Source: a virus. Taken from it: 31,872 bases of DNA. The stretch spans positions 1-31,872 of IMG/VR virus record IMGVR_UViG_3300024323_000014; one strand, given 5' to 3'. Position 1 is the first letter of the stretch, and every line of letters begins with the position of its first letter. The translations under genes were made by a program, and so were the position numbers. Below the pieces are notes generated by a model that made no database searches, had not been told where the DNA came from, and worked only from the letters and a program-made list of their open reading frames with translations. Below are positions 16,155 through 29,565 of this stretch, one piece after another.

Positions 16155-16339
16155 GCGGTTACGAAAGACCAATAATAAAACAGTATTACTTAACCGTTGA
16201 AACTGATGATTTGATAATCGCAATCCGGCCTGAATGGATTGATTTTCAGCATGTGAAAGGCGCCAGGGGCGGATATCCAACGTTGAATGCTGCCATTGAC
16301 GCCATGATTAAACATTTGGAAGGATTGCGTGATGAATGA
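16151..16339 (+). CDS. Small hypothetical protein (62 aa)
   Basis: The product has a beta-beta-helix look: KQYYLTVETDDLIIAIRPEW, then YPTLNAAIDAMIKHLEGL. This suggests a small compact alpha/beta domain. It is coupled at both ends to neighbours (ATGA before, ATGAATGA after). No family recognised. Confidence 0.5.
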   Translation: MSGYERPIIKQYYLTVETDDLIIAIRPEWIDFQHVKGARGGYPTLNAAIDAMIKHLEGLRDE

Positions 16340-16523
16340 TTTTACGAAAGACGAGCTGCAAATTATTCATCTTGATATGACTGCATACATTCATAGAACG
16401 ACTATATTGGCAGAATCACCGAGTCATCGCGCCTTAAGAGATAAAGTTCAATCCATGATTGACGATTATTGCGAGTATGAAGATTGGGAAATGATTGAAG
16501 GTGATTGCGAGAGAATAGGATAA
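16332..16523 (+). CDS. Small phage protein (63 aa)
   Basis: I used the ATG at 16332, seven bases behind AAGGA; GTG at 16329 is an alternative. The segment FTKDELQIIHLDMTAYIHR...ALRDKVQSMIDDYCEYE recalls short proteins in many phage early regions, which carry an FTKEEL...LRDKVQSMIDNYC pattern. Their function is not known to me. It overlaps both neighbours. Confidence 0.55.
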   Translation: MNDFTKDELQIIHLDMTAYIHRTTILAESPSHRALRDKVQSMIDDYCEYEDWEMIEGDCERIG

Positions 16524-21636: not shown

Positions 21637-21867
21637 ATGACATTTCAATCACATTGTATAAAAAATGGAATAGAACTCCTGCGAGATGACATAATATTCA
21701 TAAAAAAACAGTTGGCAGGTATTCCTGAGCATTTGCAAAAGCCAGTCTTAACTGAATATTGTGAAATCTGGTTGAAAGGTATGAAGGAAACCGATATTGT
21801 TTATCGGCAACAAAATATCGGAAGACGCAAGGCTAATTTATATTTATTGGAGCAGGTACATGGATAA
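21637..21867 (+). CDS. Small phage protein between origin and cold-shock gene (76 aa)
   Basis: The product contains [20 protein letters not shown] and [18 protein letters not shown], a helical, basic C-terminus suited to nucleic-acid or replication-protein binding. TGGAT lies before the ATG. Its stop overlaps the cold-shock gene start by eight bases. Position between primase-helicase and cold-shock protein suggests a replication accessory role, which is inference only. Confidence 0.55.
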
Positions 21868-22066
21868 GCTGGGAACGGTTAAGTGGTTTAATGGGGCAAA
21901 AGGCTTTGGATTTATTGAATGTGATGGTGAAGATTATTTTGCACATTTTCGGTCAATAGCGGGCGCAGATGGCTTTAAGACGCTGGAAGACGGTGCAAAA
22001 GTAAAGTTCACAGCATTCGCAGGCAAGAAAGGGGCTGAGGCTCATGATATAACGGTTTTACGGTGA
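21860..22066 (+). CDS. Cold-shock domain protein (68 aa)
   Basis: The product [20 protein letters not shown]... is a complete cold-shock domain. KWFN is at 8-11, RNP1 KGFGFI at 14-19 and RNP2-like DYFAHF at 25-30, where bacterial proteins usually have a VFVHF-like sequence. It should bind single-stranded RNA or DNA and melt structures. The length is typical of CspA-type proteins. It is the last gene of the rightward early operon and is coupled to the previous one. Confidence 0.9.
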
Positions 22067-22286: not shown

Positions 22287-22592
22287 TCATAAACCGAACC
22301 TTTTACAAAAAAGTGTGAATGAATCGGTTCTTTTTTCTCTCTCGGCTGTATTGGTAGGTTCTCCGTTCTTTTCATTGTTACTCCTAATTTTAAAATATAA
22401 TGTGTTTAATTGCTTGCTGACTACATCCCAATCTGGATCGCAAAATCTGTAGCTTTTTACATCATTCACGATGAGAATCTTGGGCGCGGCTTTTTGCAAT
22501 AGCGGCTGCATTTCGAACTTAACAATGCAACCTAAAGGCTCGAAGGATTTGCATTGCTGTTTCACAATTTCATATTGCGTTGCAGTAGGCAT
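22287..22592 (-). CDS. Hypothetical protein downstream of csrA (101 aa)
   Basis: The product MPTATQYEIVKQQCKSFEPL... has a central alpha/beta pattern (ILIVNDVKSYRFCDPDWDVV) and a charged tail. GAGGA at 22605-22601 (minus) is its ribosome binding site and overlaps the end of csrA. It is the last gene of the leftward operon. Not recognised. Confidence 0.55.
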   Translation of the reverse strand: MPTATQYEIVKQQCKSFEPLGCIVKFEMQPLLQKAAPKILIVNDVKSYRFCDPDWDVVSKQLNTLYFKIRSNNEKNGEPTNTAEREKRTDSFTLFCKRFGL

Positions 22593-22595
22593 GAG

Positions 22596-22796
22596 CTATT
22601 CCTCAATGCTTTTATATTTTATGATATTGGCATTTTTCCTGCGTGCGTGGTAAATCTCTTCGCGGTCGATAATGCAGTCTTTAGGCGCGTCGAAACCGAT
22701 TTTTATTTTTCCGTATTCATTAATTTCACAAAAAGTAATTACAATATCATCGTTGATTCGTATTTTTTCACCGGCTTTTCTCCATAAGATGAGCAT
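22596..22796 (-). CDS. csrA: CsrA-family post-transcriptional regulator
   Basis: This 66-residue protein aligns with CsrA throughout: MLIL at the N-terminus, RKAGEKIRINDDIVIT, KIKIGFDAPKD and DREEIYHARRK. The RNA-contacting residues Leu4 and Arg45 (Arg44 of E. coli, in the REEIY motif) are kept. Trp5 replaces the usual Thr. CsrA dimers bind GGA motifs near ribosome binding sites and repress or stabilise mRNAs. CAGGAG lies before its ATG, so autoregulation through this site is conceivable. It is in the leftward early operon with small genes of unknown function. Confidence 0.92.
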   Translation of the reverse strand: MLILWRKAGEKIRINDDIVITFCEINEYGKIKIGFDAPKDCIIDREEIYHARRKNANIIKYKSIEE

Positions 22797-22801
22797 ATTT
22801 G

Positions 22802-22906
22802 TTACTCCTGGTTATATTTCCAATCATCCGCGTGCTCTTCATTATACTTCCGTTGACGTTCATATTCTTCATTTGCTAGTTCGTCTTCATCGCCATGGAA
22901 TTCCAT
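22802..22906 (-). CDS. Tiny acidic protein before csrA (34 aa)
   Basis: I chose the ATG at 22906, which has GGAG at suitable distance; an in-frame ATG two codons earlier is too close to it. The product MEFHGDEDELANEEYERQRK... is very charged and ends five bases before csrA, with the csrA ribosome binding site in its last codons. Unknown. Confidence 0.45.
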   Translation of the reverse strand: MEFHGDEDELANEEYERQRKYNEEHADDWKYNQE

Positions 22907-22908
22907 AT

Positions 22909-23037
22909 TCATATCTCCTGTGTTGATTCAATCATTTTTCTAATTTGTTTTAAAGCGATGCTGATGTCGGCCAGCGCTTTTTCCATGTCTTCTATTAGGT
23001 CACATACTTTTATTGCTATTTGTTTTTCTTCTGTCAT
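22909..23037 (-). CDS. Tiny helical protein (42 aa)
   Basis: The product MTEEKQIAIKVCDLIEDMEK... is one long amphipathic helix. It is coupled by a four-base overlap with the preceding gene, and its end contains the ribosome binding site of the next. No family recognised. Confidence 0.45.
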   Translation of the reverse strand: MTEEKQIAIKVCDLIEDMEKALADISIALKQIRKMIESTQEI

Positions 23038-23204
23038 TTACCCAAGCTCCGTAATTTTTCTACCATGTCGATGTCAGCATCCCGCGATCCTTCAATGTAT
23101 GACCAGTACAACAGTATTTGTATTGTTTTATTTGCTTCGCCTGTGTAAACCATTTTCTCTAGGCGTTCGTTTGTTATTTCGTTATATTCAATTTCTGTTT
23201 TCAT
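23034..23204 (-). CDS. Small hypothetical protein (56 aa)
   Basis: I chose the ATG at 23204; the longer frame would use TTG. The product MKTEIEYNEITNERLEKMVY... is helical and acidic with a Trp/Tyr-rich middle (ILLYWSYIEGSRDAD). It starts one base after the previous stop and overlaps the following gene by four bases. Confidence 0.5.
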   Translation of the reverse strand: MKTEIEYNEITNERLEKMVYTGEANKTIQILLYWSYIEGSRDADIDMVEKLRSLGK

Positions 23205-23205
23205 A

Positions 23206-23409
23206 TTATTTACCAAAAGTATTTTTTAAAGATGAAACCATGTCTTCAATATAGCTCACTAATGTTGATGGCCAGATTGACTCAACTCCTTCCCATATCG
23301 TGATTGCATCATCATCAGCATTCAATCCTTCCAATATTTCTGGATAGCTCCAGTCCTCAGGATAATTGCTCAAAAAGTGATTTATTGCGAATCTTTCGAA
23401 TTTAGTCAT
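23206..23409 (-). CDS. Small phage protein, first gene of leftward operon (67 aa)
   Basis: The product MTKFERFAINHFLSNYPEDW... recalls short acidic proteins in phage early regions, with a Trp-rich segment and an IEDMV helix at the end. It lies about 48 bases downstream of the predicted start of the promoter at 23464-23491. The function is not known. Confidence 0.5.
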   Translation of the reverse strand: MTKFERFAINHFLSNYPEDWSYPEILEGLNADDDAITIWEGVESIWPSTLVSYIEDMVSSLKNTFGK

Positions 23410-24366: not shown

Positions 24367-24548
24367 TTTTAGACGCAATTGATACCGACAAGCTAGAACT
24401 CACAGAGCAAGAGCAACAAATTGTCGCTGTAATCAACCATCAGATGATATTGCAAGACCAATTTAATCAACTAACCAAGCATTGCGAACTACTCTATACG
24501 CGAGTAATTGCGCTTGAGAAGTCACTGGCGAACAAGGTGCTGTCATAG
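24363..24548 (+). CDS. Small coiled-coil protein between terminase genes (61 aa)
   Basis: The product MILDAIDTDKLELTEQEQQI... is helical, with the segment HQMILQDQFNQLTKHCELLY. It is coupled to terS by ATGA. Its final codons overlap the proposed AUA start of the large terminase (bases ATAG at 24545-24548), so it may control terL translation. A -1 frameshift near its end would also fuse it to terL. Confidence 0.6.
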   Translation: MILDAIDTDKLELTEQEQQIVAVINHQMILQDQFNQLTKHCELLYTRVIALEKSLANKVLS

Positions 24549-26071
24549 ACTTATCACGCCTCAAAGACTTCAAGTTCTTCTCATCAGAATTTTTCAAGAT
24601 ACGCACTAAGAATGGATCGGTAGAACCATTTCTATTAAATCGCGCACAGCTATATATACACGATAGACTAGAGGCTCAATACAAAGAAACGGGCAAAGTT
24701 AGAGCAATCATTGTTAAAGGCAGGCAACAAGGATGCTCAACTTATGTGCAAGCACGCTACTTCCATAAGACCATAACTAATCGTGGTATTAAGACATTCA
24801 TTCTTACGCATGAAGGACAGGCGACCAAAAACCTATTTGAGATGACCAAGAGATATTATGAATACTTGCCCGCTGGGTTATGTCCACGTGCTAACAGAGA
24901 CAGCCAGAAAGAACTTAAATTTGAAACCATTGATAGCGGGTATGCAATCGGAACAGCAGGCGCAAAAGGAACTGGGCGATCTCAAACTGTCCAGCTACTA
25001 CACGGGTCAGAGGTCGCTCATTGGCCAAATGCAGCCGAGCACGCCCAAGGATTGTTTCAAGCCGTAGGTGACCAGACAGGTACTGAGATCATATTGGAGT
25101 CTACGGCCAACGGCATTGGTAATTTCTTCCATCAATCATGGGTCGCAGCCGAACAAAATCTATCAGACTTCCAAGCCATCTTTGTTCCTTGGTATTGGCA
25201 ACCAGAATACAAAGCTTTTTATACACAAACGAAAGATGAAATCTATCTAAGCGATGAAGAGCAAGCACTGTTTGATAACTATCATGACAATGGCATGACG
25301 CGAGAGCATATTTATTGGCGTCGATTTAAGATAGGTCAATTCTCAAGTGACCATGAATTAGGCGTAAAGCTATTCAACCAAGAATATCCAACATGCGCGA
25401 CTGATGCATTCCTTAATCCAGTCGACGATACATTTATTAACTCATCTCATGTTACGCGCGCACGTAAAGCAAAGGTTGATGTTTCACCAACAGCACCATT
25501 AATCATTGGTGTTGATCCAGCCATCGGTGACAATGATAGATGCGCCATCATCAAGCGAAAAGGTCGCGTAGCTTATGACATTGAATCATTGCGTAACTAC
25601 AATACAATGGAACTCGCCGGAAAACTAAAGGGAATGATCGAGCGCGAAAAGCCGGCCAAAGTTTTTATTGATTGCATTGGTATTGGTGCTGGCGTCGTGG
25701 ATAGATTGCAAGAAATGGGATTCAGTTGTGTTGAAGGCGTGAATGTTGCTCGCACAGCTGGCGACAAAGAGAAGTTTGCTAATCAGCGCGCGGAATTATG
25801 GTGGGAAATGCGGGAATGGTTTACTGGTGAATTACCTGTACAGATACCTGATCAAGATGAATTACATGCAGATTTATGCTCATTAGGATATAAGCATCGA
25901 AGCAATGGGCAATTGCTGATTGAGTCTAAGCTTGATTTAAAAGCAAGAGGAATGCCAAGTTGTGACCTTGCTGATTCATTAATGTTAACATTTGCCATGG
26001 GTCAGCATGCAGGCGCAACACAATATCAGCCAAACTTCATGCCTAAACAACATGGTTCTATGTTCACCTGA
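24545..26071 (+). CDS. terL: Terminase large subunit, non-AUG start
   Basis: The product (508 residues from AUA at 24545) is the packaging ATPase and nuclease. The ATPase region has KGRQQGCSTY at 58-67 (Walker A) and a Walker B region at ILESTANG. The nuclease motifs are IIGVDPAIGD, KVFIDCIGIG and CDLADSLML. The open frame begins at 24518, after a stop at 24515, and contains no ATG, GTG or TTG before GTG 24746, which would remove the Walker A motif. AAGGTG at 24534-24539 is five bases ahead of the AUA, supporting that start. The length then fits the family. A -1 frameshift from the preceding gene is the alternative. Confidence 0.85.
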   Translation: MDLSRLKDFKFFSSEFFKIRTKNGSVEPFLLNRAQLYIHDRLEAQYKETGKVRAIIVKGRQQGCSTYVQARYFHKTITNRGIKTFILTHEGQATKNLFEMTKRYYEYLPAGLCPRANRDSQKELKFETIDSGYAIGTAGAKGTGRSQTVQLLHGSEVAHWPNAAEHAQGLFQAVGDQTGTEIILESTANGIGNFFHQSWVAAEQNLSDFQAIFVPWYWQPEYKAFYTQTKDEIYLSDEEQALFDNYHDNGMTREHIYWRRFKIGQFSSDHELGVKLFNQEYPTCATDAFLNPVDDTFINSSHVTRARKAKVDVSPTAPLIIGVDPAIGDNDRCAIIKRKGRVAYDIESLRNYNTMELAGKLKGMIEREKPAKVFIDCIGIGAGVVDRLQEMGFSCVEGVNVARTAGDKEKFANQRAELWWEMREWFTGELPVQIPDQDELHADLCSLGYKHRSNGQLLIESKLDLKARGMPSCDLADSLMLTFAMGQHAGATQYQPNFMPKQHGSMFT

Positions 26072-28202: not shown

Positions 28203-28968
28203 TTTATTGAATGCTGTGCCGATGGAACCAGAACCTATCGCAACAAGCGATACATCAGATGCGACTGAATTTGAGCCAGAAATAAAGCCGATTGAAAAGA
28301 TACCTGAGCCAGAAAGTTCAGTAACTGAAGCGGAAGTTGAAACTGATGACTATGGTTCTCCAGTAGAAAAGAAAGAGAAAACATATACTGAAGCTGAAGT
28401 TCAGGAAATGATTCGCCGAAGAGTCAAAGAGAAGCACGAGCAGCCGATTGTTCAGCCTCAAGAAATGCCAGCGAATACAGATGGTGATAACTGGGAATCA
28501 CAATTAGAGTCATTTGTTGAACAGACCCTGACGAAGCGTGAGCAAAAGATGCAAGAGCAGTCTTGGCAGCAACAACAAGCACAACAACAAGCCGAGTTTG
28601 AGATTAAATTCAATTCTGGTGCTGCTAAATATCCAGATTTTGAATCAGTAGTCATGGGGAAAAGCTTGACGCCTCAAATGGTCATTGCAACTCGCGGAAT
28701 GGATAACCCAGCAGCATTTATTTATGCAGCTGCTAAGACGCAATCAGGTGAACTAGATAGAATTGCTAAGATTTCAGACCCATATTCACAGGCGGTAGAA
28801 CTAGGAAAACTTGAAGAGCGTATGAAGAAAGGAAAAACATCGGTAAGCAATGCACCAAGACCTATTGAAACACCACGCGGAGATGTTGTTGAGAAAAAGA
28901 ACAAGAATCAAAACATTGATGACAAATTGCTTCAAGTTGAGCGTGACATGAAGAAAGCGAGAAGGTAA
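28180..28968 (+). CDS. Scaffolding protein
   Basis: The 262-residue product is highly charged and helical, with a Glu/Pro-rich, disordered first 80 residues, a central Gln-rich coiled coil (QSWQQQQAQQQAEFEIKF) and a basic C-terminus (MKKGKTSVSN..., ERDMKKARR). Such a basic helical end binds the coat protein in P22 gp8 (303 residues). Position between portal and coat agrees. Assignment rests on position and character more than on sequence identity. Confidence 0.8.
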   Translation: MSLTNIDDLLNAVPMEPEPIATSDTSDATEFEPEIKPIEKIPEPESSVTEAEVETDDYGSPVEKKEKTYTEAEVQEMIRRRVKEKHEQPIVQPQEMPANTDGDNWESQLESFVEQTLTKREQKMQEQSWQQQQAQQQAEFEIKFNSGAAKYPDFESVVMGKSLTPQMVIATRGMDNPAAFIYAAAKTQSGELDRIAKISDPYSQAVELGKLEERMKKGKTSVSNAPRPIETPRGDVVEKKNKNQNIDDKLLQVERDMKKARR

Positions 28969-28980
28969 ATTGTTGGCGCA

Positions 28981-29565
28981 CTATTGGTGCGCCTTTAGAT
29001 ATCTGATTGCAGATTCTAATCGTTCGATTGAATCTTTCATGTGTCCAAGTGCTTGATTGCACATTTGACATAATAATCCTCTAATTATTTTTGTTTTATG
29101 GCAGTGATCAATTGCGAGTCTTTTTATTCCTTTTTTATCTGCTCTAATCATCGTTTCTGGATTGCCACAGATGGCACATGATCCATCTTGTTTTTGAAGT
29201 AGTTCTTCATAATATTCTTTAGTTACTTTCACTTTATTTTTTCCTTTCCCTATATACCAGTTTTTCTTAAGTATATTTGTATCGCGATTTGGATTCTTTT
29301 CATCGAACTTTTTCATAGCATTCTTTTTGCATTCATAGCATTGATATGAAGAATAATTGTCATTTTTATAGGCTTCATCAGGTGTCAGTTCACCGTGAAT
29401 CTTACAAATATGAACAATGCCTTCCGGCAGCGTTTTAATGGGCAAGTCATGCGATTTAAAGCGGCTCCAACGAACTCTATGCATAATGCACATACTTGAA
29501 CCTTGTGATTTGTCTCTTGGTTTTTCGCAATCTTCTACTTTACAAAAATCAGATTTAATAGCCAT
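28981..29565 (-). CDS. Endonuclease VII-type HNH protein inserted between scaffold and coat
   Basis: The 194-residue product ends with an endonuclease VII-like domain: CAIC at 130-133, LAIDHCHKTKIIRGLLC at 150-166 with the catalytic Asp-His-x-His, and CxxCN at 166-170, as in T4 gp49. The N-terminal part has extra Cys pairs (C-x4-C, CxxC at 76-79), like many free-standing homing HNH enzymes. It lies antisense within the head operon, separated from the coat gene by a structured 247-base region. It is probably a selfish homing endonuclease; resolution of branched DNA during packaging is the other option. Confidence 0.85.
   Translation of the reverse strand: MAIKSDFCKVEDCEKPRDKSQGSSMCIMHRVRWSRFKSHDLPIKTLPEGIVHICKIHGELTPDEAYKNDNYSSYQCYECKKNAMKKFDEKNPNRDTNILKKNWYIGKGKNKVKVTKEYYEELLQKQDGSCAICGNPETMIRADKKGIKRLAIDHCHKTKIIRGLLCQMCNQALGHMKDSIERLESAIRYLKAHQ

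Follow-up and report, generated by a model that had tools for sequence, protein, structure and literature searches.

A CsrA-family protein encoded by a podovirus-like phage, with an unusual predicted RNA-contact surface

Introduction

CsrA is a bacterial protein that grips mRNA and turns the translation of genes on or off. Phage-borne csrA genes have already been described (PMC7366521, PMC8450108, PMC11879866), with 30 phages counted by 2020 and a survey of IMG/VR published in 2021 (Campa et al., PMC8450108). Although these genes are common, our literature search yielded one knockdown phenotype, that of phage PTXU04, in which csrA knockdown led to smaller plaques and csrA was among the genes whose expression was toxic or disturbed infection (2025; PMC11879866). 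The cas genes are repressed by RsmA, an effect from which phage homologues have been suggested to profit (PMC8450108). Other mobile elements carry CsrA homologues as well, including RsmQ of a Pseudomonas plasmid, which gains control of translation in its host and reshapes host behaviour by that route (PMC9928087), and CsrT of Legionella integrative elements.

The csrA gene described here lies in the window, i.e., the complete 31,872-base virus record from IMG/VR. The closest described systems are the phage CsrA/RsmA proteins (F116-type RsmM of Pseudomonas phages, PTXU04_00028, and the IMG/VR homologues of Campa et al.), which belong to the same Pfam family, are encoded by tailed phages, and have a similar core domain with conserved loop-reading residues; the F116 copy is 49% identical to the window protein over 49 aa. 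The window protein differs from them in having Trp5, Lys30, and Lys32 in place of stem-contact residues. Phage copies were described as highly similar to bacterial ones (PMC8450108), whereas those of the window's clade are not. The window protein is about 33% identical to E. coli CsrA. RsmQ and CsrT are likewise mobile-element homologues but are carried by a plasmid or ICE rather than a phage, and RsmQ has a canonical VHRE/D motif (PMC9928087). It is the RNA face of the window copy that is unusual.

Results and discussion

A divergent member of the CsrA family

The gene and its ribosome-binding site are:
22596–22796, minus strand: csrA, encoding a 66-aa CsrA/RsmA-family protein, MLILWRKAGEKIRINDDIVITFCEINEYGKIKIGFDAPKDCIIDREEIYHARRKNANIIKYKSIEE (Pfam PF02599, PHROG 9500, AF2 model)
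22805–22809, minus strand: Shine-Dalgarno (SD) sequence AGGAG of csrA, with GGA inside it (read from the sequence)

The ORF is intact from its ATG through to the stop codon and the ATG has a good ribosome-binding site, with the SD 8 nt upstream; the gene is the sole csrA in the whole record. Against PF02599 the protein scored 65.4 bits (E = 4.6e-18), above the Pfam gathering cut-off of 27 bits, and the match extended across the whole domain (residues 1–51 on profile positions 1–50 of 53). It also matched PHROG 9500, annotated as a CsrA-like regulator (E = 8.7e-16), and, in a phmmer search of PDB chains, RsmE 2jpp (E = 5e-10). The protein thus clears the Pfam threshold, but it does not reach those set for NCBIfam equivalogs (55.9 vs. 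70.1 bits for TIGR00202; 54.8 vs. 73 bits for NF002469), which makes it a divergent family member rather than an orthologue-grade one.

An AF2 monomer model built from 11 phage sequences reached a pLDDT of 80.4 and a pTM of 0.53, with strand beta1 unassigned. All Foldseek matches with E ≤ 0.001 were CsrA/RsmE proteins (probability 1.00; query TM 0.68–0.74), the fold neighbours being RsmE 2mfc/2jpp, CsrA 1vpz, and 5z38. As modelled, the window protein has the CsrA fold. An earlier note on this DNA had proposed a complete, phage-encoded CsrA, to be checked by a profile search; the identity was borne out by the Pfam and PHROG matches and the fold, and the completeness by the intact ORF.

RNA-contact residues

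Two positions of the protein, assigned from sequence and alignment, are central to the comparison with characterized homologues:
22782–22784, minus strand: Trp5, codon TGG (Thr5 in E. coli CsrA and RsmE)
22662–22664, minus strand: Arg45, codon CGC, equivalent of the essential Arg44

Window Arg45 corresponds to E. coli Arg44 because of a one-residue insertion. With the chromosomal RsmE (P. protegens) and CsrA (E. coli) the window protein shares the fold (2mfc, 2jpp, 1vpz) and, in E. coli numbering, L4, R6, A36–P37, R44, and E46, with I42 present; it differs from them by T5W, Q29K, R31K, H43D, and V42I (W5, K30, K32, and Asp44 in its own numbering for the first four), by the insertion, and by its own C-terminal tail. 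In window numbering, the loop-reading residues L4, R6, A37, P38, I43, R45, and E47 are kept. Arg44 was reported to be essential for RNA binding in RsmA (PMC3791407, PMC7366521), and the RNA site formed by this residue with Leu4/Arg6 is represented by L4, R6, and R45, so that the preservation of Leu4 and Arg45 claimed earlier holds.

The stem-reading side is different. In RsmE, the side chain of Thr5 forms a hydrogen bond with the C-G pair that closes the stem (PMC4005645), as Ser7 does in RsmN (PMC3791407), and contacts with the U-A pair that follows have been ascribed to Gln29 and Arg31 (PMC4005645, PMC3791407). Trp5 would therefore remove the contact with the closing pair. In place of Thr/Ser5, Gln29, and Arg31, which are typical of the family rather than strictly defining and vary in other members too, the window has W5, K30, and K32. 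Judged from the alignment, the loop-reading part is intact while none of the three stem-reading side chains is retained. The earlier suggestion that Trp5, normally Thr, may alter RNA preference thus gains support, both from the role of Thr5 in RsmE and from the accompanying replacement of Gln29 and Arg31.

In a comparison sample of 73 sequences besides the window's (from E. coli, RsmE, a single bacterial host copy, and phages; chosen for Thr5 and not for positions 29 or 31), position 29 was Q in 67 and position 31 was R in 63. A similar triple change (A5, K29, K31) was found in the relative G010. A scan of IMG/VR, excluding the window's own record, for a degenerate DNA pattern encoding ML-x-(L/F)-W-R-x-x-G-E matched 11 stretches, none of which was CsrA, whereas the corresponding narrower Thr pattern matched at least 120 stretches; of the 80 kept among the matches listed, 79 were CsrA.

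The three replacements are predicted to make binding less dependent on a C-G-closed hairpin, with the loop or single-stranded GGA counting for more, and the window protein possibly has a relaxed stem preference. A point against GGA binding is that His43 of the VHRE motif corresponds to Asp44 in the window: RsmQ binds GGA via its VHRE/D motif and is weakened by H43A (PMC9928087).

Proposed function and GGA sites

We consider it probable (roughly 0.6) that the gene encodes a phage CsrA/RsmA RNA-binding protein that alters the translation or stability of mRNAs with GGA sites, mainly those of the host, to favour infection. Encoded in the leftward small-gene operon, the protein would act as a homodimer, as expected for this family, and bind GGA sites near the ribosome-binding sites of mRNAs; this predicted activity rests on the conserved contact residues. 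By changing translation or stability of the bound, mainly host, mRNAs it would take over or compete with host Csr control, and infection could be favoured through metabolic reprogramming and possibly through suppression of defence. The homodimeric, GGA-binding regulator of translation is predicted from the protein itself, while host targeting and timing are suggested by analogy with the other phage and plasmid homologues in the literature.

Alternatively, CsrA might mainly time the translation of the phage's own genes, including itself, rather than the host's. The csrA leader, with a mean of 3.1 GGA in −100 to +20, contained more GGA than that of any other conserved gene in these phages, a clear enrichment over plain leaders, and a GGA lies within the SD, so that CsrA may bind its own SD (AGGAG). 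However, with the SD and start codons removed from the count, the excess disappeared (18 GGA observed vs. 16 in shuffles, p = 0.28). A GGA-rich sponge RNA was also sought near csrA and rejected: the GGA-dense minus-strand stretches nearby were coding DNA, no such RNA was seen between the neighbouring genes, and an Rfam search returned no match. Self-regulation as the main role is rather unlikely.

Retention and divergence among relatives

PF02599 searches of the records of relatives (50, then 41) found csrA in 13. Among the 13 relatives with TerL identity of at least 72% and at least 4 kb of flanking sequence upstream of TerL, all except G498 carried the gene. It lies on the strand opposite the terminase and as a rule has the primase/cold-shock-protein side on one flank and the terminase module on the other, within the leftward small-gene operon. 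This retention, generally in the same operon, indicates a gene long kept in the clade and not a stray ORF. The gene was missing from relatives that share the head-protein type but are more distant (L018, L020, L023, and beyond), with one exception, G013 (head protein 74%), whose csrA is at another location.

The window protein is about 37–48% identical to most clade copies, and its identity is among the lowest of the genes common to the window and G001/G002. Such divergence would suit a functionless passenger gene that is neutral or in decay, but the ORF and SD are intact, 12 of the 13 close relatives keep the gene with conserved core residues, and the median identity of 43% is comparable to the values for further small or early genes (SSB 35%, VapE 44%). 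A passenger gene is therefore highly improbable. Accelerated evolution of csrA was likewise rejected, as its divergence was not exceptional beside those genes. In a clade tree of 57 columns, too short to settle between single and multiple origins, 7 label changes were counted vs. 12.4 in shuffles, and the window and G001 copies paired at 90 SH-aLRT.

Relatives without Arg44 and neighbouring genes

In the comparison sample, R44 was kept in every sequence with a letter at that position. Three homologues at the same locus in relatives (records G005, G011, and G496) have R44-E45-E46 replaced by H-P-K (IDHPKK):
L095, 1432–1629, minus strand: csrA homologue without Arg44
L104, 59–271, minus strand: csrA homologue without Arg44
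L131, 5823–6041, minus strand: csrA homologue without Arg44

They are 25–29% identical to the window protein and keep the rest of the CsrA domain. Given the reported essential role of Arg44, these copies should be defective or different in RNA binding, and are possibly dominant-negative forms; RNA binding may not be required throughout the clade. They are the most surprising thing seen, though in relatives and not in the window. Such copies, like the altered RNA-facing surface of the window protein, would fit an antagonist that weakens host Csr regulation through mixed dimers with host CsrA or through competition for RNA or partner proteins. The window copy, however, keeps Arg45 and the whole loop-reading set, and we regard antagonism as unlikely for it; regulation of mainly host GGA-site mRNAs remains our preferred reading.

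The leftward operon runs from 23409 to 22287 as a series of small ORFs that abut or overlap, and a convergent gene flanks it:
23206–23409, minus strand: 67-aa ORF, first of the operon
23034–23216, minus strand: 60-aa ORF, conserved in G001/G002 (61%)
22909–23037, minus strand: 42-aa ORF
22802–22912, minus strand: ORF for an acidic microprotein of 36 aa, immediately upstream of csrA, with the motif HGDEDE...HADDW
22287–22592, minus strand: ORF for a 101-aa protein, immediately downstream of csrA, with the motif (Y/W)(R/H)(F/L)(S/C)DPD(W/L)xV
21860–22066, plus strand: cold-shock-domain protein gene, convergent with the operon (Pfam CSD, E = 1.6e-18; synteny)

The earlier placement of csrA in an "early leftward operon" stands as a gene layout, while "early" is presumptive. 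The cold-shock-domain gene is a conserved neighbour of the operon. The stop codon of the acidic microprotein adjoins the csrA SD; the microprotein is directly upstream of csrA in G005, G011, and G496, a similar ORF lies further upstream in G007 and G018, and Pfam and NCBIfam searches gave no match. The 101-aa protein adjoins csrA in G001, G002, G010, G012, and G018. Strict coupling of the two genes was ruled out, since fragment G533 has the downstream gene without csrA. The model of the 101-aa protein is alpha-beta-beta-beta-alpha with a confident core, and the best neighbours in the fold search were T7 Gp1.2 and dsRBD/HPF folds (E = 0.01, none significant). T7 Gp1.2, to which the similarity is weak, is a dGTPase inhibitor.

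A bolder and doubtful proposal is that the clade's CsrA has been remodelled rather than borrowed, its RNA face altered by loss of all stem-contact side chains (window) or of Arg44 (three relatives), and that it binds a different RNA shape or poisons host CsrA through mixed dimers, together with co-encoded small partners, namely the upstream acidic microprotein and the downstream protein with the dsRBD/Gp1.2-like fold. With csrA almost always present, at a mostly fixed locus, and with natural variants at several RNA-contact residues, the clade offers a natural panel for studying the purpose CsrA serves in phages and the contacts that determine its RNA preference.

Phage and host context

The window is a fragment of a podovirus-like phage of roughly 37–38 kb; its fuller relatives are about 37–39 kb. 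The portal is P22-like (about 27% to Vibrio phage VvAW1), and an Sf6-like small terminase, a VapE-type primase/helicase, Sak4, SSB, and a GH108 endolysin are also encoded. An INPHARED nucleotide search with bases 1–25,000 gave no match, and IMG/VR relatives shared the major head protein at up to 93% identity. No tyrosine integrase was found in 8 records.

Two related phage contigs were found in MAGs, one alphaproteobacterial and one gammaproteobacterial. The former MAG had no detectable csrA, and the only csrA match in the latter was on another contig, so that its phage contig showed none; both links could be mis-binning. Otherwise, 369 gammaproteobacterial genomes gave weak or distant head-protein matches only, and the rest of the 42 genomes of the alphaproteobacterial order gave none.

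Some further features were observed. The large terminase frame (24518–26071, plus strand) is open from 24518 and encodes a full N-terminus with a Walker A-like KGRQQGCST, with no ATG, GTG, or TTG before 24746. By alignment with L104, its start would fall near an ATA at 24545, in overlap with the TAG that ends the preceding ORF, and a rare start, recoding, or an assembly error may be involved. Apparent inteins, each ending in HNS, occur in TerL of L104 (3223–5556) and L103 (10709–13402) at different sites, one after KGRQQGC and one after LLHG. A 98-nt tRNA-Asn (anticodon att) called by ARAGORN at 28946–29043 (plus strand) overlaps the end of a coding ORF and is probably spurious. The early region of relatives contains tandem small paralogous ORFs beginning M(N/S)(D/N/E)FTK(E/D)EL (L102, 10244–10936; L162, 700–2110), and one copy of this family is present in the window at 16329–16523.
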